From an uncultured Spirochaetales bacterium (GTDB lineage: Bacteria; Spirochaetota; Spirochaetia; Sphaerochaetales; Sphaerochaetaceae), in contig CALXKL010000005.1 in assembly GCA_944388965.1 (NCBI GenBank), forward strand, positions 1 through 64,000: DNA of 64,000 nt. Direction: 5' to 3'. The notes below the pieces were generated by a model. That model did no database searches. It was given only the letters and a program-made list of their open reading frames with translations, and was not told where the DNA came from. The translations under genes were made by a program, and so were the position numbers. Below are positions 6,375 to 25,152 of this stretch, piece by piece. Each line of letters starts with the position of its first letter. Positions within the stretch are counted from its first letter, which is position 1.

Positions 6375-9300
6375 TCAGACCACCATGTCGAATGTCGGAT
6401 TTGCATTGTCGCGATCAAGTATCCTCTTGATCTCCTTTGCCAGGGATCTGGCATCCCCGTTGAACCCGTTTATCTCTATCGTCACGTTGCCGTAGCTTAT
6501 GGACGTGTTCCGGTTCTGTCTTTCGACGTACTGTCCGGAATAGGCGAGGATGTCGTCCGAGCGTCTGTACTCCTTGCCCAGCTTCTCCGCGACCAGACCT
6601 TCGAACTCCCCAGCCGAGATCAGGCCCCGTTCATATACCTTCTCGAGGTCCCTCAGGTCGGGCTGCTGCGATGTGTTCTCGGCCGTCTCCATCGTGTTCC
6701 TGTTGATGTCGTCAAGCAGAGAGAATGCAGAATCCCAGTTTCTCTGGACATTTCCGAACACGTCCGTATCCGCCATGTCCTGGAATTTCGAGTCGTCTAT
6801 CTTCTTCATTCCTCCGAACGGCTTCCATCCGAAGATGTTGACCGACTGGAGTGCGCCTATGACGCCGTTGATGATGTTCGTGAAGAAGGTGACGATGTTG
6901 CCGAGCAGCCACTTGAACGAGTCTGATATGAAGCCGACGACGACCTTGACGACCGCATACACCGTCACGAAGGCCTTGGTGAGAAGCTCTATGACCGGAG
7001 TAAGCGCATTGAGAACCGGCACCAGCGCGGCGTTCAGCAGCTCGAAGATCGGCGTCAGTATGCTCATCAGGAGCGACAGCATGTCATGTATGGCCGCTAT
7101 GATCGGGTAGAGCGTGTTTCCAAGCAGCTCTGACAACGTGCTGATGACGTCGAAGACAGGCTGGACAACCTCCAGCGCCGTCGACAGCACGTCGCCGATG
7201 AGCAGCATGATCTCGTAGAACGGATTGAGTACGTCGAACACGAGCCCCTGCAGAAGCGACGTGAGCTGCTCGATGAAAGGCACGAGAGGGCGCAGGAACG
7301 AATCGAGCATGGGGGTCACGGAATCCGATATGAGCGAGACGACCTTCTGGACGGCCTCCGTCTGTGCCGTCAACCTTATGAGCATGTTCAGGAGTGCACC
7401 CCATGGACCGAGTGCGCTGGATGCCGAATCTCCGAATGCCGATACGATCGTGCCGACATCACCCAGCGCGGCGAGCGAGCTGTCGGCTATGGAACCCCAT
7501 GCCTCGTCCCGTGCCTCCTGTCCGGCCTGGGTCCCTGCCTGTACTGCGGCGTTCTCGATGAGAGGCCGTACCTCATCGTATGCGGCGGTGATGTCCTCGA
7601 CCGACGCACCATTCTCCTCCATGAGCTTCTTAAGGTCGGCCCATCCGGACATGCCTTCCTGCATGGCCTTGTTGTAGGCCTCCTGTGCTGCCGTATCACC
7701 TGCGAACCCAGCATATGCATAGCTGGTCTGCGGGGTGGGGGAGAGCGATGCCTTGAAATCCTCGACCAGCCCTTCGTTGAGCTTGTCGTAATACTTCTCG
7801 TTAGCCTCAAGCCAGAGAGTGAACTGGGAGTCCAGCTTCTCTCTTTCCTCCGGGGTATAATCTCCGCTTCCAAGTACGGATGCCCTCTGCCGCATGATTT
7901 CGGCATTGGCGGCATCCCGTGCGTTCAGGTCGATGTCTGCAATCGAATGATAGAGGGCTGTTATCTCATCCGCGATGTCGGAACGCTGTTCGTCATATCC
8001 CTCCTTCCGTTCCTGTTCTTCCTGCAGTTGCTGAAGGGCGATGGTTGAGGACCTGAGGTTGTCGAACGCCGCGTTGACCATCTCGATCTCCTCGGCCGTG
8101 CGGGCGTAGGTCAGTGCGAGATTGCGCTGCGCCTCGATGTCGTCCAGCTCCTTCTCCGCGTCGGTCATGCCGAACTGTCTGATGTCGGTCATGATGCCCG
8201 CATTCGTCTCTTCCGCATCTTCAGTCAGGTCGAACGCCTTCTTCACCCTTTCGGATTCGGCCTCGAGCGCCTTGACCTGTTCGATGACGTCCTTCCATTT
8301 CCCGACGATTGAATCAAGAACGGCTTCGCTGTCCTTGAGCTTGACATCTCCTGTTGCGATGGCGTTGTATACCGCCTCGTACAGTGCGACGAAGCTCTCC
8401 GCCTTGCTCTCGAGCCCGTCGAGTTCATCGACCTCGTCGAATGCCAGTTCTATCTGGCTGAAGAAGTCCTTCCAGCTTCCGTTCTCGATGTCGGATATGG
8501 CCTCCTGTATCGCCTGGGCGTTCGTCAGGTCGACGGCCTTCTGTGCATAGGGACCGGAGGAGGCGATCTGCGCTATGTTTGCACCATGGTCGACATCCAG
8601 CGAGACCCCGGCGATGGATGCGATCGAGTCGATGAATCCGATGGCGTTGGACTTCATGGACTCGAGCGCCTTGGCCGCCTCCTCGCTTGCACGCTCCTGT
8701 TCACGTGCCTTGTCCACGACCTCGAATACGGCCTTGACCATTGCCATGAGAGCCGGGTCGACATCTTCGCCGAGAACCCTGGTCACGTCGTCCAGCTCTG
8801 CGCCGAACTCGATGACCATCTTCTCGAGATCATCCTGCAGGGCCAGTCTGCCGGACTCGTCGGCAACGGTACGCACCCCGCCGTTGTATGGAGTGCCGAT
8901 CTGCCTGTAGCCCCGGGCCGAGAACTCGTCCTGGAACCTCTCCATGGCAAGCTGGAACATGGTGGCGTCCAGGCCCCCGCCGTCAAGGTCGTAGACGTTG
9001 ATGTTCTTCTGGCCCTCGGCGAACTGGTCCTGTGCGCTCTTCGCCTTGTTTATGGAATCCGCTATGTCGAGCCACAGCTTCCTGAGCGGGGTGAGTATCG
9101 TGTTCACGGAGCGGCCGAGATTCTCCATCAGGGCCTTGTTCGCCTCCGTGACCCGTCTGGCCACGTTCTCGGTCGAGTCGAGGGTCTTCACCATGTCGCC
9201 CTGGGCATTGACGGCCTTCTCCTGGACCATCTGGAGGGTCTCCTGCACCTTGGCGAACTGGAGTGCCGCACCGGAGAGCTTGTCCAGCCCCTTCTTCTGC

Positions 9301-10415
9301 AGTCTCGTCTGCACCTCGGCAGCCGTGATGATGTATCCATAGCGTCGCAGGTTCTCGTAGTTCCCGACGAGAGCGGAGGCGAATGCAGACATGACCTCGG
9401 TCGTATCACCGGTTATGTTCTTGAAGGAGATTATGTCGAGCGTGGTCTGTACGGCCGCCTGCGCGAATTCCAGGGCGGCGGCCTGGCTCTGACCGTACCC
9501 CATGGCAAGGTCTCCGAACATGCCCAGCGATTCCTGCATCGTGCTTCTGGCCATGCCCAGGGATGACGCCATGTCGTTTGCCACGTTGTTCGCCGCAGTG
9601 GAGACCGAAGAGAACGTGGTGTTGAACAGGTTCGCGGTCTCCTCTGCAGACGCGGCCGCTCTCGACCATTCCTCCGCCGATCTGACCAGCAGCCGGAATC
9701 CGGAGCGCACAGCACCGATTATCGCCTGGGCGGAGACGAATCCCTTGATCATGTCGGAGATGCTTGAGGATGCCTTCCTTGTGGATTTCTCCAGTGCATC
9801 CACCGCGGTCTTCTGCTTGCGGTACTTCTCCGCTAGCTTCTGCGCCTCGTCGCTGTCCTTGCCCTGTGTCGTTATGACGCTTCTCAGAGCCTTCTCGTAC
9901 TGCGAGAGCTGTTCCCGCGCCTTCCCCAGACTGTCTCCGACCATGTCGTAATAGGCAAGCGAGGCCTGGTCCGCCGACATGGCGTTCGGGGCAGGGGAGC
10001 GTGATTCGATGTCGGTCCTCGCAGCCTCCATCCGCTCGGATATCCCTGCGAGGGCGGGGATGTCCTGGTCCTCCGACAGCATCTGCAGGCGGTTGCGGGT
10101 CTTCTCGAGATTCCTGTACACCTTCTCGAGGTTCCTGACCGTCTCTCCGTTCTGTGTGAGGATGGCGCGTTCCTTGTCCAGCCTTTCCAGCAGGTCATCG
10201 GTCGCCTTTGCGGCAATGGACTGGGCCTCGGCGAACCGTTCGGCGGCATTCTCCGCATCGGGGTCCATGTTCATCGCATCCAGTGCCTGTCCGGCGCTGG
10301 AAGAGGCCGCGTTGACATCCTTGACCATCCTGTCGAGGGAGTCCGAGAAGCCCTGCATGCCTTTCATGGCTTTCGTGGAATCGGCAGAGATTATGACCTC
10401 AAGCTTCTTTGCCAT
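6375..10415 (-). CDS. tail tape measure protein
   Basis: This 1346-residue protein sets tail length and is ejected ahead of DNA. I chose ATG 10415 (MAKKLEVIISADSTKAMKG): the frame is open for 76 codons upstream but those residues are Arg/Gly-rich shadow sequence overlapping the chaperone gene. Residues 1-250 are coiled coil. The middle carries a helical segment with LGMARSTMQESLGMFGDLA, as in tape measures of the TP901/lambda sort. A hydrophobic stretch of about 200 residues near 1010-1210 (LLIGDVLSTALEVVQPVFDV and similar) would form membrane-interacting helices. By the usual rule of about 0.15 nm per residue the tail would be near 200 nm; that is an estimate. It follows the G/T chaperone genes, as in lambda. 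Confidence 0.9.
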   Translation of the reverse strand: MAKKLEVIISADSTKAMKGMQGFSDSLDRMVKDVNAASSSAGQALDAMNMDPDAENAAERFAEAQSIAAKATDDLLERLDKERAILTQNGETVRNLEKVYRNLEKTRNRLQMLSEDQDIPALAGISERMEAARTDIESRSPAPNAMSADQASLAYYDMVGDSLGKAREQLSQYEKALRSVITTQGKDSDEAQKLAEKYRKQKTAVDALEKSTRKASSSISDMIKGFVSAQAIIGAVRSGFRLLVRSAEEWSRAAASAEETANLFNTTFSSVSTAANNVANDMASSLGMARSTMQESLGMFGDLAMGYGQSQAAALEFAQAAVQTTLDIISFKNITGDTTEVMSAFASALVGNYENLRRYGYIITAAEVQTRLQKKGLDKLSGAALQFAKVQETLQMVQEKAVNAQGDMVKTLDSTENVARRVTEANKALMENLGRSVNTILTPLRKLWLDIADSINKAKSAQDQFAEGQKNINVYDLDGGGLDATMFQLAMERFQDEFSARGYRQIGTPYNGGVRTVADESGRLALQDDLEKMVIEFGAELDDVTRVLGEDVDPALMAMVKAVFEVVDKAREQERASEEAAKALESMKSNAIGFIDSIASIAGVSLDVDHGANIAQIASSGPYAQKAVDLTNAQAIQEAISDIENGSWKDFFSQIELAFDEVDELDGLESKAESFVALYEAVYNAIATGDVKLKDSEAVLDSIVGKWKDVIEQVKALEAESERVKKAFDLTEDAEETNAGIMTDIRQFGMTDAEKELDDIEAQRNLALTYARTAEEIEMVNAAFDNLRSSTIALQQLQEEQERKEGYDEQRSDIADEITALYHSIADIDLNARDAANAEIMRQRASVLGSGDYTPEEREKLDSQFTLWLEANEKYYDKLNEGLVEDFKASLSPTPQTSYAYAGFAGDTAAQEAYNKAMQEGMSGWADLKKLMEENGASVEDITAAYDEVRPLIENAAVQAGTQAGQEARDEAWGSIADSSLAALGDVGTIVSAFGDSASSALGPWGALLNMLIRLTAQTEAVQKVVSLISDSVTPMLDSFLRPLVPFIEQLTSLLQGLVFDVLNPFYEIMLLIGDVLSTALEVVQPVFDVISTLSELLGNTLYPIIAAIHDMLSLLMSILTPIFELLNAALVPVLNALTPVIELLTKAFVTVYAVVKVVVGFISDSFKWLLGNIVTFFTNIINGVIGALQSVNIFGWKPFGGMKKIDDSKFQDMADTDVFGNVQRNWDSAFSLLDDINRNTMETAENTSQQPDLRDLEKVYERGLISAGEFEGLVAEKLGKEYRRSDDILAYSGQYVERQNRNTSISYGNVTIEINGFNGDARSLAKEIKRILDRDNANPTFDMVV

Positions 10416-10423
10416 CTTCTCTT

Positions 10424-10783
10424 TCAGCTCCTGTGTGCGCGTCTGGCTGCCGCACGGTCCTGCTCCCTCTCCCAGTCGTCGAAGCGTATGGCCTCGGCAT
10501 CCAGGATTGCGAGGATATCGAGAGTCGTCTGCCTCTCGTCCAGCGTGCCCCCTCCGTGCGGGAGCACCTTGAATCGCCTCCATGTGTAGTACATGGACAG
10601 CGCCGCCCTCAGAAATGCGTTGTCCATGGGTACCAGGTCGCATGCGTACAGGACACTGCGTTCCTCTCCGTCATCGTCGAGGAATCCTCTAAGCTGGACC
10701 ATGTTCGTATAAGAGCGGTCGTCGCCTGCCTGTCGTGCTCGATCGAACAGGTCGAGTCTGCTTGCCTGGTACCCGATCGTCAG
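10424..10783 (-). CDS. tail assembly chaperone T-like extension, made by -1 frameshift
   Basis: This frame encodes 119 residues from CTG 10783 to the stop at 10424 and is continuous with the G-like gene only through a -1 shift at the slippery site. Its first ATG (10702) has no ribosome site, while the 27 codons before that ATG read as ordinary protein (LTIGYQASRLDLFDRARQ), so expression as a fusion is the better explanation. The predicted fusion is 244 residues (125 + 119), similar in plan to lambda gpG-T, in which the T part recruits tail tube protein onto tape measure. The gene ends 8 bases before the tape measure start. Confidence 0.75.
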   Translation of the reverse strand: MTIGYQASRLDLFDRARQAGDDRSYTNMVQLRGFLDDDGEERSVLYACDLVPMDNAFLRAALSMYYTWRRFKVLPHGGGTLDERQTTLDILAILDAEAIRFDDWEREQDRAAARRAHRS

Positions 10784-11157
10784 TTTTTTACTTCGTCGCT
10801 CGTCAGCTTCGTTCCTGCGACGAGATGACTGCCGACGTCGCTTATGAGTTCGCTGAATTCAGCCGTGTTCCTCAGGTCAAGCAGGGTCTTCGCATCCGTG
10901 ATGGCCGTGCCGTTCACGATCAGGTTCTCGATCGATATGACCTGACTGCGGAAAAGCTTGCGGAAATCGAAACGGACAGAGGAACCGTCCGGACTCGTCA
11001 TCAGGAAGTTGACGGACTCGCCCGTCTTGAGATGACGGCAGGTCACCGTGACCTTCGGGTCCTCCCTGTTCCATGAACAGGCCGGAGTGTAGACATGCTC
11101 TAGACCTGCATTGCCCTTGGATATGTCGATGTTCTTGTCGTCGAAATGGAATCTCAT
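10780..11157 (-). CDS. tail assembly chaperone, G-like
   Basis: A 125-residue protein starting MRFHFDDKNIDISKGN after an AAGGAG site 9 bases before ATG 11157. It ends LTSDEVKN with the stop TGA at 10782-10780, directly at the slippery heptamer. It lies between the tail tube gene and the tape measure gene, the place of gene G in lambda-type phages, whose product coats the tape measure during tail assembly and is not in the virion. Sequence similarity to lambda gpG is not apparent by eye, so the assignment rests on position, size and the frameshift arrangement. Confidence 0.75.
   Translation of the reverse strand: MRFHFDDKNIDISKGNAGLEHVYTPACSWNREDPKVTVTCRHLKTGESVNFLMTSPDGSSVRFDFRKLFRSQVISIENLIVNGTAITDAKTLLDLRNTAEFSELISDVGSHLVAGTKLTSDEVKN
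10783..10789 (-). promoter_or_regulatory. -1 programmed ribosomal frameshift site A AAA AAC
   Basis: Read on the minus strand in the phase of the upstream gene, the last codons are GTA AAA AAC TGA, giving the classical heptamer A AAA AAC one codon before the stop. A one-base backward slip changes the reading to AAA AAA CTG ACG and continues for 119 residues to the stop at 10424. The X XXY YYZ phase is correct, and the site sits at the G/T junction where most long-tailed phages frameshift. No strong downstream stem was evident by eye. Confidence 0.8.
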
Positions 11158-11249: not shown

Positions 11250-11966
11250 TCAGGCGGCGACCCTGCCTGCGGTGGCATCGACGATTCCAGCCCACTTCAT
11301 GATCGAGCGGATCCTTCTGATGCCCTCGTCGGTCGTGTCGCATCCCTGGAAGTCCAGGTTCAAGGACTGCGGCGAGCCATATGCCGCCTCCTTGCTGTTG
11401 TTCGTCAGGATGCATGGCACGAAGTTGAACTCGGTGATGTCGCCGAGCTTTGCACCGAACGCATCCCAGATGAGTACGATGAGGTCCTTCCTCGTCGTGT
11501 CGCTCTCCTTGTAGACAGGGGTGTCTCCGGCCATGTCGAGCGTATCGTTGAAGCGTAGCTTCAGCTTCTCGACGGCACTGTCCGGATCACCGACCATGTC
11601 ATATCCGGATATCGATCCCGAGGCCGCTACGGAGCCTTCGCAGATGTAGTTCGTGCTCTCGTCCATGTCGACCGTGGCATCGTTGACCTGCTTTTCCTCG
11701 GTGTACGACTTGTTGTTCGCGAAACCGAGGAAATAGGCCTTGAGCTCGAACACCTCGTCGTCTTCCGCCACCGTCATCTCCTCCTGACAGTAGAACGGGA
11801 CCAACGGAGGTATCACCTCCTCAAGTGAACTCGAAGCACCTCTCCTCGAGATGAAGTAGAAGTGTCCGAGCTCGAGCGACCCCGCCGCGACCTTGGTTGC
11901 ATCCTTCTCCAACAGGTATGCGTGTGCCTTTCTTCCATCTCTTCTCGTATACCTTCCTGTCGGCAT
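11250..11966 (-). CDS. major tail tube protein, V-like
   Basis: A 238-residue protein beginning MPTGRYTRRDGRK at ATG 11966, chosen because AGGAGGAGAAGAT stands directly before it; the open frame extends upstream but only over the previous gene. It has no cysteine-rich or membrane segments and reads as beta-rich (LELGHFYFISRRGASSSLEE; ESTNYICEGSVAASGSISGY). Position between the tail terminator-like gene and the G/T chaperones is that of lambda V, the protein that stacks as hexamers to form the tail tube. Family identity is inferred mainly from order and size. Confidence 0.7.
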   Translation of the reverse strand: MPTGRYTRRDGRKAHAYLLEKDATKVAAGSLELGHFYFISRRGASSSLEEVIPPLVPFYCQEEMTVAEDDEVFELKAYFLGFANNKSYTEEKQVNDATVDMDESTNYICEGSVAASGSISGYDMVGDPDSAVEKLKLRFNDTLDMAGDTPVYKESDTTRKDLIVLIWDAFGAKLGDITEFNFVPCILTNNSKEAAYGSPQSLNLDFQGCDTTDEGIRRIRSIMKWAGIVDATAGRVAA

Positions 11967-13005: not shown

Positions 13006-13354
13006 CCGATCCTCCCTTCTCGATGAGCTCGAGAACGGTGATTCCGCTCTTCGCCCCGAGTGTCCTCACGATCGTGTAGGTCGTCCCGTCGACGGCCACA
13101 CGTGCCTTCCTCACCTGACCTGCCAGCAACGGTCCGACGTCCCTGCTGGAGCACTGGAACGAGGTCCTCACCACCGACTTGGCCCTCATGTATCCGGTCT
13201 CGCTCCTCTCGCCATACGAGCCGGAGCAGAGGAATCCGGATACGTTCAGGACCTGGCCGTCCTCCAGCGTCACCGAAGCCTGTGTCGAGAAGCCGGGTGA
13301 ACCCTGTAGGATCGCCGCCCATTGGTCTGCGATGGCTCTCCGAGCGTCCGTCAT
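12977..13354 (-). CDS. head-tail joining protein, FII-like
   Basis: A 125-residue protein starting MTDARRAIADQWAAILQG at ATG 13354, which overlaps the capsid stop in an ATGA arrangement; longer starts lie inside the capsid gene. The C-terminal half (VDGTTYTIVRTLGAKSGITV) reads as a small beta domain like that of lambda FII, which forms the ring between head and tail. It follows the capsid and precedes the Z-like gene, as expected for FI/FII. The name is positional plus fold-like pattern. Confidence 0.55.
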   Translation of the reverse strand: MTDARRAIADQWAAILQGSPGFSTQASVTLEDGQVLNVSGFLCSGSYGERSETGYMRAKSVVRTSFQCSSRDVGPLLAGQVRKARVAVDGTTYTIVRTLGAKSGITVLELIEKGGSDGDKAQRQT

Positions 13355-14418
13355 GCAGCGTTCTTCGGGATGCCCGTGATCACGCCGTAGCGGTCGATCG
13401 CCGTGAGCATCGGGCATGGAGCCGCCTGGTGCTGGACCATGGTGTCGACCTTGACGCCCTGTTCAGGGCTGTAGATGTAGGAATAGACCTCCTCTCCCTG
13501 CTTGCCCTGCACCTTCCGGCCCTGTCCGTCCGTGCTCCTGACATAGACGCCGCATGCGCCGAGCTTGCCCAGCTCGCCGTTGTGCAGCACAGCCTTGCCC
13601 TGGGGCAGGTAGTAGTTGCCGTCGGGATCCATGCCTGCATAGGTGATGACCTTCAGCGGTCCGATACCCGGTATGTCGATGACCGCAACCGAGCTCACTC
13701 CGTTCTTGCTTTCGGTGGTTTCGACGTGGCTTCCATAGATGCGTCTGTTGTCGAGGATGGCGCGGAAGTCCTCGATCTTGAGCAGATTCGCCCAGTCGAG
13801 CGGGTTGAAGATGATCTCGTTCGGGGTGCGGCCGGCCTTGAACACCAGGTCGCATGCGTTCATCAGAGTCGCCATCCAGTCGGAGAACAGCTTGCTTCCG
13901 TCGATCGAGAGCAGCTTGTTCTGGACCGGGAACTTCTGCTCGCCGCCGTTCAGCGTGGAGAACTTCGCGTTGAGGATCGTGCTCCATATCGCCTTCTCCC
14001 TTGCGACCTTCACGCCATCGAACCATTCCTCCCTGCTCTCGGCGAGGAGATACATCAGCCTCTGCTCGATGGTCCACGGCTTCGTGAGGTCTACCTCGGC
14101 CGCTACGCGGTTCTCCGCCGCCTGGGCGTTGAACACGAACTCGTCGAAGAAGTAGAGGGAGGCGATGTGGTTCTCGTCGAACGAGCTGCCATAGTTCCTG
14201 CGGTTCGGATCCGCACCTCTAATCGCCTCCTGAGGAATGATGATCCCCTTCTTCCTGTAGTTGTAGGTGAGGAAGTCCTGCGCGGTCCTGGGACCCTTTC
14301 CGAAGAGGACCCTCTGTCCATAGTCGAAGACCGGCTCCGACGTCCTGATCACGGAGGGGATCTGGTATGCTCCCCTGTTGATCACGTCGTAGTTGATAGT
14401 GCTCAGATCAAGTGCCAT
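13351..14418 (-). CDS. major capsid protein, lambda gpE family
   Basis: A 355-residue protein (MALDLSTINYDVINRGAYQI) of the usual size for E-type capsid proteins (340-350). It carries the features of that family: an N-terminal arm, a long helix in the middle (IEQRLMYLLAESREEWFDGV), an NPLDWANLLK segment after a predicted insertion, and a C-terminal beta domain with VYSYIYSPEQGVKVDTMVQH. It follows the decoration protein by 3 bases and is followed by the FII-like gene with an ATGA overlap. It forms the icosahedral shell by hexamer/pentamer assembly. Confidence is high on combined sequence and gene order. Confidence 0.9.
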   Translation of the reverse strand: MALDLSTINYDVINRGAYQIPSVIRTSEPVFDYGQRVLFGKGPRTAQDFLTYNYRKKGIIIPQEAIRGADPNRRNYGSSFDENHIASLYFFDEFVFNAQAAENRVAAEVDLTKPWTIEQRLMYLLAESREEWFDGVKVAREKAIWSTILNAKFSTLNGGEQKFPVQNKLLSIDGSKLFSDWMATLMNACDLVFKAGRTPNEIIFNPLDWANLLKIEDFRAILDNRRIYGSHVETTESKNGVSSVAVIDIPGIGPLKVITYAGMDPDGNYYLPQGKAVLHNGELGKLGACGVYVRSTDGQGRKVQGKQGEEVYSYIYSPEQGVKVDTMVQHQAAPCPMLTAIDRYGVITGIPKNAA

Positions 14419-14421
14419 TCC

Positions 14422-14820
14422 TTATTCCTCCCTTCCGAGAAACAGGATCTGCGTCTGCTTCGCGGAATACATGTCGAGAACCCAGTCGGGACATGCCGTC
14501 TCGTCGATTCCGGCTTCACGTACCATGTCGTAGTAGACCGTGCCGGCGATGATCACGCGGGCCGTCGTCTCGGAAGTCGACAGCCTGACGTCCTCGAACA
14601 GGACGGCCACGGCGCCTTTGGGCGATATGTCGGTCTCGGCTGTCGGTATGAGCGACGTCTCGAGCGCATTTGCCGTGTACTTGCCATCCGTATCCGTCAT
14701 GAAGACAAGGTGGCCCTTCTTGGCATCGATCTCGGATGCCGCCTTCACAGTGACCTCTTTGGTCACGATGTCCTCCTTGTAGAGAACAGGGGTGATTGCG
14801 ATGTTCGTTCCTGCCATCAT
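14422..14820 (-). CDS. head decoration protein, gpD-like
   Basis: A 132-residue protein with N-terminal Lys/Glu/Val-rich strand (VLYKEDIVTKEVTVKA), a size typical of the gpD group that trims and stabilises the shell as trimers. The gene lies between the protease/scaffold gene (ATGA overlap) and the capsid gene, exactly as D lies between C/Nu3 and E in lambda. Two ATG codons in tandem (14820, 14817) follow AGGAG by 5 and 8 bases; either could be used. Confidence 0.75.
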   Translation of the reverse strand: MMAGTNIAITPVLYKEDIVTKEVTVKAASEIDAKKGHLVFMTDTDGKYTANALETSLIPTAETDISPKGAVAVLFEDVRLSTSETTARVIIAGTVYYDMVREAGIDETACPDWVLDMYSAKQTQILFLGREE

Positions 14821-15191
14821 CTGATCTCCTTGCCGTTCACCTTGGCGATCTCCTCGTTGATCTCCCTGGCTGCCGCATCGCCTTTCCTGTAGGCATCGAG
14901 CTCCGCGCTGGCCGGCATGCCGGCAACATCGGTCTGGACAGCCGCCTGTTCGGCGATCGGTCTGATCTTCGCGATCTCGGCCCTGAGGTGTTCGTTATCC
15001 TTCCTCATCGCCTCGATCAGATCTTCTGCGACATCCGCGACCGAAGAGCCGTCCTCGATGGCCCTGTCGATGATCGCGGCGGTGGCATCGTCACGCAGCC
15101 CCTCGAGGGCGCGTATCCTCTGCCTCTCCGCTGCTGCCGCCTCTCTCCGGATCTGGTCCTGAGAAGCGCCTGCACCAGTGTTCTGATCCAT
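14817..15191 (-). CDS. scaffold protein from internal start in the protease gene (Nu3-like)
   Basis: Within the protease frame an ATG at 15191 (MDQNTGAGASQDQIRREAAA) is preceded by GTAGGAGGAGAA, a ribosome site far too good to be chance in the middle of a gene. It would make a 124-residue protein that is the helical, Glu/Ala/Arg-rich C-terminal part of the protease polypeptide, predicted coiled coil. This copies lambda, where the scaffold Nu3 is made from an internal start in gene C. The product would fill the procapsid during assembly and then be digested. Confidence 0.75.
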   Translation of the reverse strand: MDQNTGAGASQDQIRREAAAAERQRIRALEGLRDDATAAIIDRAIEDGSSVADVAEDLIEAMRKDNEHLRAEIAKIRPIAEQAAVQTDVAGMPASAELDAYRKGDAAAREINEEIAKVNGKEIR

Positions 15192-15989
15192 TTCTCCTCC
15201 TACGCCCTCTGAACCCAAAGGACTTGAATTGATGTTCTGAATGTCTTGCGGCTCGTCCGCCTCGAAGGTCTCGACGGCCTCGTCGATCGTCTGGATCGCA
15301 TCGATCATCCCTGCTTCCAGTGCCTCCTCGACCTTGAGGACGGCCCCATGCCCGAAGCGTTCCATGCAGGTGTCACTGTCCATGCCGCGTCCTTCTGCGA
15401 CCATCTCGAAGTAGCCTGCCTCCGCATAGTCGATCCGTTCCTGTATCGCCTTGGCCCCTTCCTCTGTCGAAGGGTCGAGGTTCTTCTTCTGGGCATTGCG
15501 TGAATGGAATATCCGGCTGATTATACCGGTCTTCTCCTCCCAGCCGGACCAGTCGACGACCTCCGCCTGTACGCCGCACGAACCGACTTCGGAATAGGGC
15601 GTCGCCACGACCTTCGAGCAGCAGGCGGCGACAAGGTATGCCGCCGAGCAGCCCATGCCTTCGATCAGGGCCAGGACGGGCTTCTCCTTGCGGGTCTCGA
15701 GAATCGACCGTCCACATTCGAAGAGACCGTCGACCTCGCCGCCGGGACTGTTGATCGAGAGGACGATGCGTCGGATCTGGTCATCCAGACGGGCTTCCTC
15801 GAGCGCTCTGGAAAGCGACCTGTATGTAGAGGCGCTCCAGTAGAACCAGTCATCGGACATCAGCGTTCCTCTGACTCTCAGGTGGGCGGTCGAACCACGC
15901 CGCACCAGCTCGTAGTTGCGCGGATAGCTCTCCGCGTAGGCCAGACCGTCCACAAGGCTTTTCAGTCGTATCTCATTCACCTGTCTCAT
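14817..15989 (-). CDS. prohead protease, S49/ClpP-like, fused to scaffold
   Basis: A 390-residue protein whose first 260 residues are an S49 (SppA-like) peptidase: SINSPGGEVDGL near residues 78-89 forms the oxyanion strand, and GMGCSAAYLVAACC holds the nucleophile serine. The C-terminal 125 residues are helical scaffold sequence. It processes the portal and scaffold in the procapsid. Tandem ATG codons at 15992 and 15989 follow GAGGAG; the second has better spacing (7). The gene overlaps the end of the portal gene by 17 bases and is followed by the decoration gene with an ATGA overlap. Confidence 0.88.
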   Translation of the reverse strand: MRQVNEIRLKSLVDGLAYAESYPRNYELVRRGSTAHLRVRGTLMSDDWFYWSASTYRSLSRALEEARLDDQIRRIVLSINSPGGEVDGLFECGRSILETRKEKPVLALIEGMGCSAAYLVAACCSKVVATPYSEVGSCGVQAEVVDWSGWEEKTGIISRIFHSRNAQKKNLDPSTEEGAKAIQERIDYAEAGYFEMVAEGRGMDSDTCMERFGHGAVLKVEEALEAGMIDAIQTIDEAVETFEADEPQDIQNINSSPLGSEGVGGEMDQNTGAGASQDQIRREAAAAERQRIRALEGLRDDATAAIIDRAIEDGSSVADVAEDLIEAMRKDNEHLRAEIAKIRPIAEQAAVQTDVAGMPASAELDAYRKGDAAAREINEEIAKVNGKEIR

Positions 15990-17487
15990 CATCCTTCTCC
16001 TCGTCTTCGTCTCTTCTGTCCGGGGCAATGTCCGCCCCGCCGCCGGAAGCGCTGTTCTCCGGTCCTGCCTTGTCGCGGTACTCCATCTTCAGCTGCTCGT
16101 TGACCTCGTCCCAGTTCGAACCGGACATCTCCAGTGCACCCTGGGTATGGCTCTTTATCCCGAGCTCGATCGCCGTCTTGACCGCATTGACCTCCGCCGT
16201 CGGATTGATCATCACCGGGTTCGGGCCCATCCATACGACGGAGAGGATCGCCTTCCTCGTCATCTCGTCTCCTTCCAGGTATTCAGGACAGTCGATGACT
16301 CCGGTCCGTATGCCGTGGTCGATGATCTGCTCGTATTCGGGGGTGCATATCTGGCTTCCGAAGATCCTGCGGATGACCGAATACCATTTCTCGGCTGCAC
16401 CGATGGTCCCACGGGAGGCGGAGTAGGACGCGTTGTACTTGCCGGTTGCCATCTCGGTGGCGACTCCCACGGCTCCGCCCATGATGTCGAGATTGGTCGT
16501 TATGAACTCCGAGAATCCTCCTCCGTTCAACTGGCTCTCTATCGTCTTGGCGGTTTCTCCCGGATTCATCTCGATGACGTTTCCGGTTCCCAGCTCGAAG
16601 GACTGGTCCTCGTCTGGAACTCCGGCGTCGCCATCGTCCTTCGCCGCGATGGTCGCCGCGTCCCGCATCTTCTCGGACATGGACGTCCCTTCGACGGCGT
16701 CCTTGTCCTTCTGGATGACGACGGTGAGCAGGGACGACGCAATGGCCTTGGCGATGTGCGCCTTCGTGAAGTTGTTGAGGTCGATGATCTGGTTGCGTAT
16801 CCTGGAGAGCCAGGGGACCCCGCGGATCTGGTTCGCCTCCTGCGTGAAGAGCTTTACAAGCCGGAACTCCTCGAATCCGGTACGCGTGTAGCGGCTGACC
16901 TCCTTGAATGCGAACGTGTCCATGAGATAGTCGTCCGTCTGCATGATGTAGTACCCGGTCTCACGACCGTTTCCGTCGAGTCTGACTCCACCGATGCATT
17001 TCTTCGTATCCGAGTACCCCGGGCTCTGCACCCAGGTTCCGGATATCAGCTGAAGAAGTGGACGATAGTGCTGATCTCTCCGTGCATAGCATCTGTGCAC
17101 GAGAACGTCGCCACTGATCAGGATGTTCTGGAACGCTATCTGCTGGAGCTCCTCGAAGGAGCTCCTTCCATACCAGTCGAGACCACGGTCGGTCATTAGG
17201 CGGAAATACGCCCCGGCCTCCTTGACGAATCGGGAATACCTTTCATCGTCCCATCCAAGCAATCCCTTCATCGGCGATGGCCGTGCCTGGAGACCGTTTC
17301 CAAGCACATATGTCGTGAGCTGACGGATGTACATCGCTCCTACAGGCGTGTCCTGCACGAGCTTGCGGCTTTCGTCCTGCGCCTCCTTGAGATACTGCGT
17401 GACGAATGCGTTGACATCGGACAGATAGCTTGCCCGGAACGCCTTCTGCGATGTGGTCTGTCCGATAGCGCGGTATATCGAATCCAT
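15973..17487 (-). CDS. portal protein, lambda gpB family
   Basis: A 504-residue portal (MDSIYRAIGQTTSQKAFRAS), close to lambda gpB in length. Family features include the N-terminal VNAFVTQYLKEAQDESRKLV, the segment SGDVLVHRCYARRD and the conserved GVPWLSRIRNQIIDLNNFTKAHIA split across 231-260, which forms the long clip/stem helix. It forms the dodecameric DNA gate of the head. The start ATG 17487 overlaps the upstream stop (TGATG). The C-terminal 25 residues are acidic. The order gpW, portal, protease is that of lambda W-B-C. Confidence 0.9.
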   Translation of the reverse strand: MDSIYRAIGQTTSQKAFRASYLSDVNAFVTQYLKEAQDESRKLVQDTPVGAMYIRQLTTYVLGNGLQARPSPMKGLLGWDDERYSRFVKEAGAYFRLMTDRGLDWYGRSSFEELQQIAFQNILISGDVLVHRCYARRDQHYRPLLQLISGTWVQSPGYSDTKKCIGGVRLDGNGRETGYYIMQTDDYLMDTFAFKEVSRYTRTGFEEFRLVKLFTQEANQIRGVPWLSRIRNQIIDLNNFTKAHIAKAIASSLLTVVIQKDKDAVEGTSMSEKMRDAATIAAKDDGDAGVPDEDQSFELGTGNVIEMNPGETAKTIESQLNGGGFSEFITTNLDIMGGAVGVATEMATGKYNASYSASRGTIGAAEKWYSVIRRIFGSQICTPEYEQIIDHGIRTGVIDCPEYLEGDEMTRKAILSVVWMGPNPVMINPTAEVNAVKTAIELGIKSHTQGALEMSGSNWDEVNEQLKMEYRDKAGPENSASGGGADIAPDRRDEDEEKDDETGE

Positions 17488-17756
17488 CAGCTCCACCTCG
17501 CACAGACTGCGCATACGTTCCCGGTCATGCCTCCGGAAGCGATCTGGTTCTCGAGGACTCCTATTCGCCTTCGTGTCCTCTCTATGAGCGTGTTGAGCTC
17601 GGACAGAGACACGTTGGTCACCTGTCTCTGGTCATCGCCGTTGCGCAGAGAGTATGACTGCCCTGTGGCTATGATCCGCATCCGTGCATCCTCATACTCC
17701 TCCAGCAGCCTTGTCTGCCTATCAAGCTCATTCCTAAGCCTGTCCGTCCTGCTCAT
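17487..17756 (-). CDS. head-tail connector, gpW-like
   Basis: An 89-residue protein: MSRTDRLRNELDRQ helix, then ATGQSYSLRNGDDQRQV (resembles lambda gpW MTGKRVATVQKDGRRV), a Ser-Leu-rich turn VSLSELNTLI and a final helix. gpW seals the portal and lets the tail attach. ATG 17756 was chosen because a TATACT box ends 7 bases before it, and the next gene starts within its stop codon; longer starts at 17807 lie in the divergent promoter zone. The 3' end carries CAVCARWS, outside the family core. Confidence 0.7.
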   Translation of the reverse strand: MSRTDRLRNELDRQTRLLEEYEDARMRIIATGQSYSLRNGDDQRQVTNVSLSELNTLIERTRRRIGVLENQIASGGMTGNVCAVCARWS

Positions 17757-17763
17757 GCGCATG

Positions 17764-17798
17764 AGTATACCGGAATCGGATTGACATATGGGGATAAT
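17764..17798. promoter_or_regulatory. divergent promoter zone between terminase and head operons
   Basis: On the minus strand TATACT (17769-17764) ends 7 bases before the gpW start. On the plus strand GATAAT (17793-17798) ends 8 bases before ATG 17807. Neither start has a well-spaced ribosome site, so both transcripts may be leaderless. No matching -35 box is clear for either, which would fit a phage activator. A TTGACA at 17781 has no partner at 16-18 bases. Confidence 0.45.
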
Positions 17799-17806
17799 AG
17801 GGGACA

Positions 17807-18022
17807 ATGTTGGATTACATGAGGCGCATACCGATCGTCATATTCGTTTCGCTTGATGGCTTGGACATCGCCCTCGTCAGAACGAGGTCCGTCCTTGATG
17901 CCAAGAGGTTCCTGAGAGACAACGGGGCGACAGTGAAGAACAGTCGTCTTGTCGATCTCGAGGATTCGGTCGTCGTAGACAATGGCGATCTCGTCTTCGA
18001 GGTCATGAGGGCGGATGCATGA
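17807..18022 (+). CDS. small phage protein of unknown function
   Basis: A 71-residue protein (MLDYMRRIPIVIFVSLDGLD) starting 8 bases after a GATAAT box and overlapping the small terminase start by four bases (ATGA at 18019), which suggests coupled translation. It has a hydrophobic N-terminal strand followed by charged sequence and ends FEVMRADA. Codon use is like its neighbours. I do not recognise a family. Because it is the first gene of the packaging operon it may help terminase assembly, but this is only a positional guess. Confidence 0.5.
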   Translation: MLDYMRRIPIVIFVSLDGLDIALVRTRSVLDAKRFLRDNGATVKNSRLVDLEDSVVVDNGDLVFEVMRADA

Positions 18023-18798
18023 AGGGGCGTGAGGAGCGCAGGTCGAACGGCATCGTCTATGTGACCGGGGCGGAGTTCGCACGCCGTATGGAGGTATCCG
18101 ACCGCGCCATCCGCAATGCGATGAGCTCGGGCATGCTCACGGTCAAGGTGTTCAAGGGGGACTCCACACGCTACGTCCCCCTTGAGGAGTCGACCCGTAT
18201 CTGGGAGCAGAGAAGAAGACCCCGCAACAGGACAAGAGGCGAACGGCGTGTCGAGGAGGAGCAGGGAGGATATCCGTCCCTTGCCGGGTTCTCCGTCGCC
18301 ACCACAGAGGTGGAGAAGGTCGCGGCGGACGAGGTCGCCGTCCACGAGGTCGGAACTATCAGCGACGAGACCGGTATAAAGGGCATCAACTCCATCGACC
18401 CAAGGGCGTTCAGCGACTGCTGGCTATACGACAGGAGCGGCAACCCGGTCCTGAACAGGGAGACCGGGGAGCATGTGTTCAACTGGGACCTCGTCGGAAA
18501 GAAGCTGAAGGCGCTGATCTACAACCAGCAGCTGGAGGAGAAACGTGGACAGCTCGTGCAGAAGGAGGAGGTGACGAGGATCCTGTCCTCGATCTTCCAG
18601 CCGCTAGTGTCCTCCATTGGCCAGATACCCAACATGCATGCATCGATGATCGTGGCGACCGTATCCGACAATCTCGGGACCCCGCTCGACGAAGAAGTAA
18701 GATCGGCGATTCAGAACGTGATGCACAGGACCACCGAGAGGATTCTCCGGGATTTCAAGGATGCGATCAGGAAGGTGCTGGAAGAGGAGGATGGATGA
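18019..18798 (+). CDS. terminase small subunit, Nu1-like
   Basis: A 259-residue protein with an N-terminal winged-helix of the excisionase/Nu1 kind: TGAEFARRMEVSDRAIRNAM followed by the wing YVPLEESTRIWEQ. The C-terminal half is helical and acidic (ILRDFKDAIRKVLEEEDG) and would bind the large subunit. Nu1-type proteins recognise the cos site and load the motor. It overlaps both neighbours by four bases (ATGA). Near-full match to the plan of lambda Nu1 but about 80 residues longer in the middle. Confidence 0.8.
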   Translation: MKGREERRSNGIVYVTGAEFARRMEVSDRAIRNAMSSGMLTVKVFKGDSTRYVPLEESTRIWEQRRRPRNRTRGERRVEEEQGGYPSLAGFSVATTEVEKVAADEVAVHEVGTISDETGIKGINSIDPRAFSDCWLYDRSGNPVLNRETGEHVFNWDLVGKKLKALIYNQQLEEKRGQLVQKEEVTRILSSIFQPLVSSIGQIPNMHASMIVATVSDNLGTPLDEEVRSAIQNVMHRTTERILRDFKDAIRKVLEEEDG

Positions 18799-20720
18799 GG
18801 ATAGACGCCGACGACAAGTTCATAATCGACTCGATCTTCTCCCTTCTCGTACCTCCGGTCCTCCAGGGGGTGGCGGAGTGGGCACGTGAGAACGTGCGTC
18901 TTCCTTCCGACACGTCAGAGCCGGGATACTACGATCCGGACAGGGCGCCATACCAGCAGGCCGTGCTCGAGGCGGCCGGTCCCGAGTCTCCTGTCCGCGA
19001 CATCGTGATGGTCTTCGGAAGCCAGATGGGAAAGACGTTGTGCGAACAGCTCGTCATGCTCTACAACATCGCAGCGAATCCCAGGCCACAGGCCTTTGCG
19101 TTCTCGACGGAGGGAGAGCTGAAGCAGTTCGTCAAGATGAAGTTCAACCCGCTCCTCATGGCCAATCCCGCAATCTCGGACATGCTCGGCGTGGGGACGT
19201 TCGGGAGCGGCAACACCATGACGGAGAAGCAGTATGCCGGAGGATTCCTCAGGTTCGTCTATGCGAACGTCGAGAGCAACCTGCGAAGCTACTCCGTCGA
19301 GACGGTCGTCATGGACGAGGTGGATACGTACCCGACTGCGGTGGGCCGTAGCGGAGACCCGGTGGATCTCATGAGGGATCGACAGCGTACGTTCGAAGGG
19401 ACGCGTAAGATGATCCTTTCGTCGACGCCCACGAATACCGGCTCGAAGATACTCGACCGTCTGAAGAGGACGACGGATGAGAGATATCAGGTGCCATGTC
19501 CGCACTGTCATCGCCTCTTCGTCCTGGAATGGGAGTACATGCACTGGAGGACGGGCGAGGGCGGGGAGTCGGTCGAGAGCGCGTGGATGGAGTGCCCCCA
19601 TTGTCATGAGAGGATATGGAATTCCGACAAGACATGGATGCTCGATCCAGCAAACGGTGCCGGATGGATCGCGACAAACCACAAGGCTCCGCCGACGAGC
19701 CGTGGATTCTTCATATCGACGCTGTATGCTCCGGTCGGATGGACAAGCTGGCAGAATCTGGCACAGCTCTTTGTCGATGCCTGCAATGCAAGTACGGACC
19801 AGAGGGAGGCGAAGCTCGTATCGTTCTACAACACCAATCTGTGTCGACAGTACTCGTCGGGTGCAGAGGATTTACCGACACCGGATGCCGTCGAGGCATA
19901 CGCGATGGAGTCGAAGTACAGGAGAGGGGTGGTTCCAGCATGGGTCGGAGTCATAACGACTGGCAGCGATGTGCAGAAGAACAGGATCGAGACGACCATC
20001 ATGGGCTGGGGCAAGAGGGGACGCAACATCGTCATAGACCATGTCTTCATGGATGCTCCACCGGGAGAGGAGACGGAGGACATCGATTGCGAATGCTGGA
20101 GCCTGTATGTAGAGGAGATCCTTGAAGGACGATGGAGAAGGGAGGATGGCCTTCTGCTTGGCAGCATCGCCAACGGTCTGGATCGGTCTTATAACTCGAC
20201 GACGATCGACTCGTTCTACGAGCGTGTGCAAAGCGGCACGCTCCATCCGATCAGGGGAATCGATGGGCAGACCAGGGCGAAGACGGAGATCCCGGAACAG
20301 CGCCAGGCGAAGAACGGCACGAAGGCTCGATATTGGGATACGCCTGTAAGCGAGCTGAAGAGGATTGTTTACGGAGATCTCACGAGGACAATGAAGGCGA
20401 TCGGCACGGATACGGATCCTTATCGGAGATGCTTCTTCCCCAACGACCTGTCCCATGAGTTCTACGAACAGATGCTGGCCGAGCGGTATGTCGAGGGAAG
20501 CGATGGCAGAAGGGGGACATGGGAGAAGATCCGGGACAGGAACGAGGTGCTGGATACTCGCGTCTACAACTACGCGATGATGTACCTGTCGAGGCTGCAC
20601 GAGATGTCCGACGAGGAGTGGGACGACCTGTTCGAGCAGCAGAGGCAGATAATGAAGGAGGGACAGAGGAATGTCAGGAAGAAGAGAAGAAGACAGCTCT
20701 CGTCGGGAGTCGTGCTCTAG
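18795..20720 (+). CDS. terminase large subunit, GpA family
   Basis: A 641-residue packaging motor and nuclease, the length of lambda gpA. Visible motifs are Walker A VFGSQMGKT (about residues 73-81), Walker B VVMDEVD (172-178), the coupling motif ILSSTPT, and two CPxCH zinc pairs (VPCPHCHRLF and MECPHCHERIW, about 232-273). The nuclease part begins near TTGSDVQKNRIETTIMGWG. It cuts concatemers at cos and pumps DNA into the procapsid. It starts in an ATGA overlap with the small subunit. Confidence 0.93.
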   Translation: MRIDADDKFIIDSIFSLLVPPVLQGVAEWARENVRLPSDTSEPGYYDPDRAPYQQAVLEAAGPESPVRDIVMVFGSQMGKTLCEQLVMLYNIAANPRPQAFAFSTEGELKQFVKMKFNPLLMANPAISDMLGVGTFGSGNTMTEKQYAGGFLRFVYANVESNLRSYSVETVVMDEVDTYPTAVGRSGDPVDLMRDRQRTFEGTRKMILSSTPTNTGSKILDRLKRTTDERYQVPCPHCHRLFVLEWEYMHWRTGEGGESVESAWMECPHCHERIWNSDKTWMLDPANGAGWIATNHKAPPTSRGFFISTLYAPVGWTSWQNLAQLFVDACNASTDQREAKLVSFYNTNLCRQYSSGAEDLPTPDAVEAYAMESKYRRGVVPAWVGVITTGSDVQKNRIETTIMGWGKRGRNIVIDHVFMDAPPGEETEDIDCECWSLYVEEILEGRWRREDGLLLGSIANGLDRSYNSTTIDSFYERVQSGTLHPIRGIDGQTRAKTEIPEQRQAKNGTKARYWDTPVSELKRIVYGDLTRTMKAIGTDTDPYRRCFFPNDLSHEFYEQMLAERYVEGSDGRRGTWEKIRDRNEVLDTRVYNYAMMYLSRLHEMSDEEWDDLFEQQRQIMKEGQRNVRKKRRRQLSSGVVL

Positions 20721-23136: not shown

Positions 23137-25152
23137 ATGTGGGAGCTGAACTACATACTCAACGATCTTGCATCCATGGCGTTCGTGGTCGCGATGCTGG
23201 TCTACGTATATGGTGAGAAGGCTCTGTATTCGCTCGGCTCCAGAAGACTGTTCCCACTTATGGTGAAGCTCACTACAGCCTATGTGCTGTACAGCTGCAT
23301 CCTTGACTTCACAAGAGTGTTCGACCCGCTCGGAATCCCAGTGTGGGTGCTGGACATCTCGTTCTCCATCTATATTCTCGCGACCCAGGCCCTTGCCTGC
23401 ACGTTCATGGTCTACATAGTCGCCGATGCTCGTTCCAATGCATCATCTGCCGGCTTGGACTTCCACTCCCTCGTTGCGGCCGGCCTGATGACGGGACTTG
23501 CACTGGTCCTTCTCCTGGTCAACCGCTTCACTCCGATACTCTATTCGGTGGTGGAGGATGCCGACGGCACCGGTCTGCTCGTCACCGGGGTGGCGTTCAG
23601 ATGGCTGTTCGCCATGATGCTGGTCCAGGTGGTCATCGCCTCCGCCCTGGTCCTTCACGATCCCGGCTTCCTGCAGCCGCAGATGAGAAGGGCCGGCAGC
23701 TATGCAAGGGCCTTCTCCATGGCGTTTCTCATCCTGCAGTTCGCGTTCCCTGAACTCCAGCTGATGAGCATGACGTTCTGCGTCCTGCTGTTCTTCTGCT
23801 TCGTCGTCATGACGACATCCACTTTCCTCGTGGACCCGACCACGGGACTGGGAAACGCGAAGATGCTCTTCTCGTCCCTTGGCTACCACTTCTCGAAGGA
23901 AGGCGAGTTCTGCGTACTGTCACTGGAGCTCGTCGACTACGACAGGCTCGTGCGCGATCTGGAGACGACAATGGTCCAGGACATGCTGAATCTTCTGTGT
24001 TCCCGTCTGGGCGGTGTCGAGGGCATGAGACAGGTCTTCAGAATCGAGGAGGACAGGTTCGTCATGATAGGACCCGCACCCTCGTCCAGACAATGCAGGC
24101 GTTTCGTGCTTTCGGTGCTCGAGGTCGCCGGACTTGAATACGAGGTCGGCCCACTATCATACGTTCCCAGATGCCGCATATTCATGATCCCATGTCCTGT
24201 GGTCGCCCCTGATGAGAAGTCCGTCTTCGACATGCTGTCCTATTTCACACCAAGCAGGATCGATATGCTCGACATAGGGCAGTCCTACTACTCCGTGATG
24301 CGTGAGCGCTACAGCTTCTTCGTGTGCGACCTCAAGGTGCGCCGGAGCATGGAGCGTCGTCAGGAGATCGTGTCGATGCTGAAGAAGGCCTGCGAGGAGG
24401 ACGGCTTCGAGGTCGCCTTCCAGCCCATGTTCGACACGGATGGGCATTTCATCGACATGGCGGAATGCCTGGTGAGACTCTATGACAGGAGACATGAAAG
24501 CTACGTCAGCCCGCTGGAGTTCATACCCGTCGCCGAGGCCGAGGGATACATCGACCAGATCACGTCTTCTGTGCTGCACAAGGCCTGTATCCTCATTCGT
24601 CATTTCAGGAGTCATGGACATGCATTGACGCTGTCGCTGAACTTCTCGTCCCGCCAGATCTTCAGCAAAAGGCTGCTGGAAAGCGTGAGTGCGACACTTG
24701 CCAAGGAGGGTGTGGATCCGTCCTGTATCAGGATCGAGATCACGGAGGACGACATAATCGAGGACTACGATTCCGTGCGCAGCATGATGGACGAATACCG
24801 ACGCAGGGGAATAGGTTTCCTCTTGGACGACTTCGGGTCGGGCTATGCCGGATTGACCAGGTATATCAATCTGCCGTTCGAATGCGTGAAGCTCGACCGT
24901 TCATTCCTGCTGGCTGCGATGTCGAACCGTCGTAGCGATACGCTGATGCGTGCCCTGGTCGGCTGTTTCCGCCTTCTGGATTATGATGTCGTCTTCGAAG
25001 GGATAGAGGACGACGGACAGCTTGACTACGTGCGCTCGTGCAGCGGTCAGGCCGCAATCCAGGGATATCTTTTCTGCGCTCCGCTGGACGCTTCGGCCTT
25101 CTGCGCACGTCTGTCTGTCGACCCGATTCCACAAGACGGCCCGATAGGCTAG
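23137..25152 (+). CDS. membrane c-di-GMP phosphodiesterase: degenerate GGDEF plus EAL
   Basis: A 671-residue protein. Residues 1-225 have about seven hydrophobic helices (7TM-like sensor). A diguanylate-cyclase domain follows (DPTTGLGNAKMLFSSL) but its signature is EEDRF instead of GGDEF, so it should be inactive. The EAL domain, residues 410-660, keeps catalytic residues: ECLVRL (variant of EALVR), LNFSSRQIF, IEITEDD, DDFGSGYAG, KLDRSF, EGIED and QGYLF. It probably degrades c-di-GMP under control of the membrane part. ATG 23137 has no ribosome site; GTG 23131 would overlap the -10 box. Confidence 0.85.
   Translation: MWELNYILNDLASMAFVVAMLVYVYGEKALYSLGSRRLFPLMVKLTTAYVLYSCILDFTRVFDPLGIPVWVLDISFSIYILATQALACTFMVYIVADARSNASSAGLDFHSLVAAGLMTGLALVLLLVNRFTPILYSVVEDADGTGLLVTGVAFRWLFAMMLVQVVIASALVLHDPGFLQPQMRRAGSYARAFSMAFLILQFAFPELQLMSMTFCVLLFFCFVVMTTSTFLVDPTTGLGNAKMLFSSLGYHFSKEGEFCVLSLELVDYDRLVRDLETTMVQDMLNLLCSRLGGVEGMRQVFRIEEDRFVMIGPAPSSRQCRRFVLSVLEVAGLEYEVGPLSYVPRCRIFMIPCPVVAPDEKSVFDMLSYFTPSRIDMLDIGQSYYSVMRERYSFFVCDLKVRRSMERRQEIVSMLKKACEEDGFEVAFQPMFDTDGHFIDMAECLVRLYDRRHESYVSPLEFIPVAEAEGYIDQITSSVLHKACILIRHFRSHGHALTLSLNFSSRQIFSKRLLESVSATLAKEGVDPSCIRIEITEDDIIEDYDSVRSMMDEYRRRGIGFLLDDFGSGYAGLTRYINLPFECVKLDRSFLLAAMSNRRSDTLMRALVGCFRLLDYDVVFEGIEDDGQLDYVRSCSGQAAIQGYLFCAPLDASAFCARLSVDPIPQDGPIG

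Follow-up and report, generated by a model that had tools for sequence, protein, structure and literature searches.

A putative programmed −1 ribosomal frameshift joining two candidate tail-assembly chaperone genes in a spirochaete prophage of siphovirus type

Few conserved features of long-tailed phages are as well known as the −1 frameshift that joins the G and T genes, and most of these phages have it. In phage lambda, the slippery heptamer is G GGA AAG. It lies near the end of G (140 amino acids), the gene pair precedes the tape-measure gene, and T has no start of its own and is readable only as part of a fusion. The lambda G and G-T chaperones (Levin 1993; Xu 2004, 2013, 2014) are cited in a review (PMC5009743), where the molar ratio of gpG to gpG-T is given as 30:1. 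The same review places the g-t frameshift of the haloarchaeal tailed virus HCTV-2 at A AAA AAC. This heptamer is also a proven shift site in bacterial IS elements (cluster A_AAA_AAC_1), where it works without an established stimulator (PMC4066793).

A prophage locus in a spirochaete genome appears to have the same organization. We analysed a 64,000-nucleotide stretch of DNA from an uncultured Spirochaetales bacterium (the window), which begins at the left edge of a 196-kb contig (C5) in a genome of 2.1 Mb. From the sequence, we infer with a probability of about 95% that a siphovirus-like prophage in the window has a programmed −1 ribosomal frameshift within its tail-assembly chaperone genes, and this prophage almost certainly makes two tail-assembly proteins from one message by a −1 slip. 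The locus resembles lambda in its order before the tape measure, in the similar length of G (125 amino acids), in a predicted slip near the end of G and in a T frame that lacks its own start. It differs in the heptamer (A AAA AAC), and the lambda G and T proteins have no detectable sequence relation to those in the window. HCTV-2 shares the heptamer and the kind of gene pair, and its host is archaeal. The IS elements have the same heptamer, but in transposable-element rather than tail genes.

The G-like gene ends in a slippery heptamer. The candidate tail-assembly chaperone gene (10780–11157, minus strand), recognized from its ORF, translation and homologues, encodes a zero-frame product of 125 amino acids (MRFHFDDK...LTSDEVKN), and its last codons are GAC GAA GTA AAA AAC TGA. 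The heptamer A AAA AAC (10783–10789, minus strand) is in the exact X XXY YYZ phase, as the preliminary description had claimed. That description also held that a slip of −1 opens 119 codons, and we found this frame: it begins at 10783 with CTG ACG ATC GGG TAC CAG (LTIGYQ...) and runs to a TGA at 10426–10424, so that the T-like frame (10424–10783, minus strand; 119 codons plus stop) would give a 244-amino-acid G-T fusion. This frame is defined by its ORF, by homologues found with hidden Markov models (HMMs) and by alignments. It was further described as an orphan frame with no ribosome site at its ATG, and this too holds. The first ATG is at 10702 and would start an ORF of 92 codons; between the upstream stop of the frame and this ATG there is no ATG, GTG or TTG, and no Shine-Dalgarno-like sequence was seen by eye before the ATG. 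The T stop and the start of the tape-measure gene are 8 nucleotides apart, in agreement with the position claimed for the pair.

In the proposed mechanism, most ribosomes would stop at the TGA directly after A AAA AAC and release the 125-amino-acid G-like protein. In a minority, the lysine and asparagine tRNAs would re-pair one base back (AAA to AAA and AAC to AAA), and these ribosomes would read 119 more codons, giving the G-T fusion. By analogy with lambda, the tape-measure protein may be coated by many copies of G and few of G-T, whose T part may recruit tail-tube subunits.

The heptamer at the G/T junction is more than expected by chance, since such heptamers are rare in the genes of the window and the codons AAA and GTA are rarely used. 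In-phase X XXY YYZ heptamers with Y being A or T occur 5 times in 15,457 codon positions of the window genes, in which AAA accounts for 6.3% of lysine codons and GTA for 7.7% of valine codons. With this codon usage, the chance of GTA AAA AAC given the residues V-K-N is approximately 0.004. The window contains another in-phase AAAAAAC (22515–22509, minus strand), near the end of the gene at 23138–22461, with no matching downstream frame. This is probably a chance site, since by coordinates the next gene (22489–21764) sits in the +1 frame, not the −1 frame.

The first 20 kb of the window holds a module of siphovirus-like prophage genes. Those on the minus strand run from a head-tail adaptor (phrog_118) through the portal (phrog_21), maturation protease (phrog_53), a 132-amino-acid protein and the major head protein (phrog_29) to three small connector or tail proteins, a 238-amino-acid protein, the G-like gene and the T-like frame, followed by the tape measure (phrog_167), a large tail protein and a tail-fibre-like gene. 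The tape-measure gene (6375–10415, minus strand; 1346 amino acids) matches the phrog_167 tail length tape measure with an E value of 1.2e-10. Against the expected order of tail-tube gene, G/T and tape measure, the tape measure is directly downstream, and the upstream tail-tube candidate is identified by position only: the 238-amino-acid protein (11250–11966, minus strand), a candidate major tail protein, had no PHROG or Pfam match. The terminase genes (phrog_57 and phrog_15) are on the plus strand and divergently oriented; this layout, with small and large terminase at 18019–20720 (plus) and the portal-to-tail genes at 13351–17807 (minus), is unusual. The prophage is cut at window position 1, where the contig ends. 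Named relatives of these prophage genes are from metagenome-assembled genomes of uncultured Spirochaetaceae, Spirochaetales and Spirochaetia.

The slippery site is conserved at the G/T junction of all homologous loci identified. An in-phase slippery heptamer was present at this junction in 36 of 36 loci from spirochaete genomes and viral contigs. It is not one copied sequence, as the 21 loci that we tabulated form 13 clusters at 60% identity. The same family yielded T homologues from four further genomes, with two homologues in genome G063, and all have A AAA AAC in phase. So do four viral contigs, a set that is partly biased because the query pattern behind it included the junction KK. Junction-blind queries used split subfamilies, since a T alignment lacking its start had diverged too far for pattern scanning; they added 15 viral loci, and the in-phase site was present in all 15. 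A second junction-blind scan of the near family found no contigs beyond those already known, and single-protein scans with the T of the window against viral contigs and with TerL against genome contigs found nothing.

More distant loci carry other heptamers. In an HMM search across 393 genomes of the phylum, distant T proteins were matched mostly through their C-terminal part. Their junctions have A AAA AAC (L034, L036 and L041), C CCA AAC (L038) or, in the remaining spirochaete loci, A-runs that hold A AAA AAA and in some cases A AAA AAG. Runs of approximately nine A were present at the junction in a number of spirochaete and viral loci (L030–L033, L039 and L089–L101); there, polymerase and ribosomal slippage cannot be told apart.

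The protein sequence is conserved on both sides of the slip. G homologues with the conserved end LTxDExKN were present in five other spirochaete prophage loci. In the T frame, whose conservation was read from two alignments (A1 and A3), a conserved KKLxxGYQ comes right after the slip and, in close relatives, ahead of any start codon. In many loci the T frame is closed 2 to 5 codons upstream of the first −1 codon. Conservation thus begins at the slip, with the frame closed just upstream, indicating that the conserved T protein can be entered only by a change of frame. The first ATG of T varies among relatives from codon index 2 to 99, and the T of L041 has no ATG at all. A tape measure or another long ORF is next in nearly all homologous loci examined.

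Selection appears to act on the bases of the slippery site. In loci with A AAA AAC, the codon before AAA is GTA, GAA, AGA, ACA, CGA or CTA; this codon varies over five residues, yet its third base is always A, and we conclude that bases and not residues are kept. The zero frame runs approximately 2 to 12 codons beyond the heptamer in five relatives (L008, L009, L034, L036 and L041), so the slippery site is independent of the stop codon. Two T proteins with similar starts, LRTGFRALLIGVER in L041 and LTMGFRALLMGVER in L038, have CTA AAA AAC and CTC CCA AAC, respectively, at the junction: lysine is replaced by proline while the slippery form is kept. Locus L038 belongs to a second prophage in the same genome as the window (G000, contig C12, approximately 6559–7280; also L080), where a separate G/T pair has C CCA AAC at its junction and is followed downstream by a tape measure (L080:3637-6522, phrog_27166). 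These results, together with the conserved junction and phase and the orphan state of T, argue strongly for the programmed −1 frameshift put forward in the preliminary description.

We weighed three other explanations of the T frame. RNA polymerase, rather than the ribosome, might slip on the A run to make the −1 product, and such slippage is plausible in the several distant relatives with nine-A runs. For the window this is improbable: its run is only six A long, A AAA AAC is retained among close relatives, the C CCA AAC of the second prophage offers no long A run, and a strict X XXY YYZ phase is a requirement of ribosomal slippage. It is highly improbable that T is a separate gene read from the internal ATG at 10702, with the heptamer there by accident. 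The 92-codon ORF with its ATG start does exist in the window, but KKLxxGYQ lies upstream of that ATG and is kept across relatives in which the first ATG shifts or, as in L041, is missing; no ribosome-binding site was seen at 10702, and the slippery heptamer is kept at every junction.

The third explanation, to which we give next to no probability, is that G and T are the decaying halves of one ancestral ORF, split by an indel after the prophage had died. With the prophage at a contig edge, its intactness cannot be judged, but the same out-of-frame layout recurs at the 36 loci, which come from many genomes and viral contigs, and nearly all of those examined have a tape measure or another long ORF next. 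Since the arrangement is conserved, the decay of a single gene is already refuted, and a frameshift programmed at the heptamer is the reading we retain.

The assignment of G and T as tail-assembly chaperones draws on the order and size of the genes, on the frameshift and on the tape measure that follows. G and T had no match of weight among PHROG, Pfam, NCBIfam and PDB sequences, and a tblastn search with the G-T fusion had no match in 50,697 phage records. Profile comparison detected no similarity to lambda G or T (hhalign probability of 0.1%). The AlphaFold model of T is confident (mean pLDDT of 88), and in fold searches none of the PDB or viral structures matched it at E ≤ 0.001; the closest viral hit was an unnamed protein with an E value of 0.03. 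The model of G is poor (pLDDT of 58). The preliminary description spoke of 'G- and T-like tail chaperones'. Position and architecture uphold that part of the claim, with the chaperone role inferred from position; no match to lambda G or T emerged from sequence or fold, and sequence and profile comparisons do not place the proteins in the lambda G and T families.

The slip site of the window may be weakly stimulated, which would fit a low-level event. A possible stimulatory hairpin (10740–10779, minus strand) begins 3 nucleotides after the heptamer; with a folding energy of −13.6 kcal/mol and a z score of −1.3, it is weak on its own, and the 65-nucleotide stretch after the heptamer has a z score of approximately 0.3. 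Across 18 loci, with near-duplicates removed, RNA structure was enriched after the site: 65-nucleotide windows there had a mean z score of −1.6 versus −0.4 for flanking coding windows (Mann-Whitney p = 0.003). A Shine-Dalgarno-like element is clear in five relatives (L008, L009, L034, L038 and L041), and no good one was found at the site in the window. We dropped this element as a shared feature, as it is absent in the window and its signal comes partly from the encoded residues. An Rfam search found nothing relevant.

The choice of slippery site might be related to the tRNAs of the host. The host genome (G000; loci L044 and L046) has genes for tRNA-Lys(UUU), tRNA-Lys(CUU) and tRNA-Asn with anticodon GUU. 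The asparagine tRNA may carry queuosine, given that the host has Tgt, and this decides nothing about the frameshift. According to a review, tight pairing with AAG is expected of a second lysine tRNA, which may be the reason that Thermus dnaX products come from polymerase slippage and not from ribosomal frameshifting (PMC5009743). In Escherichia coli, AAC is a weak second codon and A AAA AAC a weak site (PMC5009743, PMC4066793). Since the host has both lysine tRNAs, A AAA AAG, which is favoured in E. coli, should slip poorly here, and a preference for AAC in second place would agree with the idea of the second lysine tRNA. The broader proposal is tentative and, in our estimate, rather doubtful: that the slippery site follows the host tRNA set, such that phages of this spirochaete family have AAC as the second codon, in A AAA AAC or in C CCA AAC, and retain the frameshift as the heptamer changes.

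Based on these comparisons, the lambda-type G/G-T frameshift would extend to a set of spirochaete prophages with putative chaperone proteins that neither Pfam nor PHROGs contains. The T half of the fusion would be overlooked by annotation pipelines or given a wrong start. The series of shift sites at one homologous position (A AAA AAC, C CCA AAC, A AAA AAA and A AAA AAG) would allow a test of the effect of host tRNAs on frameshifting.
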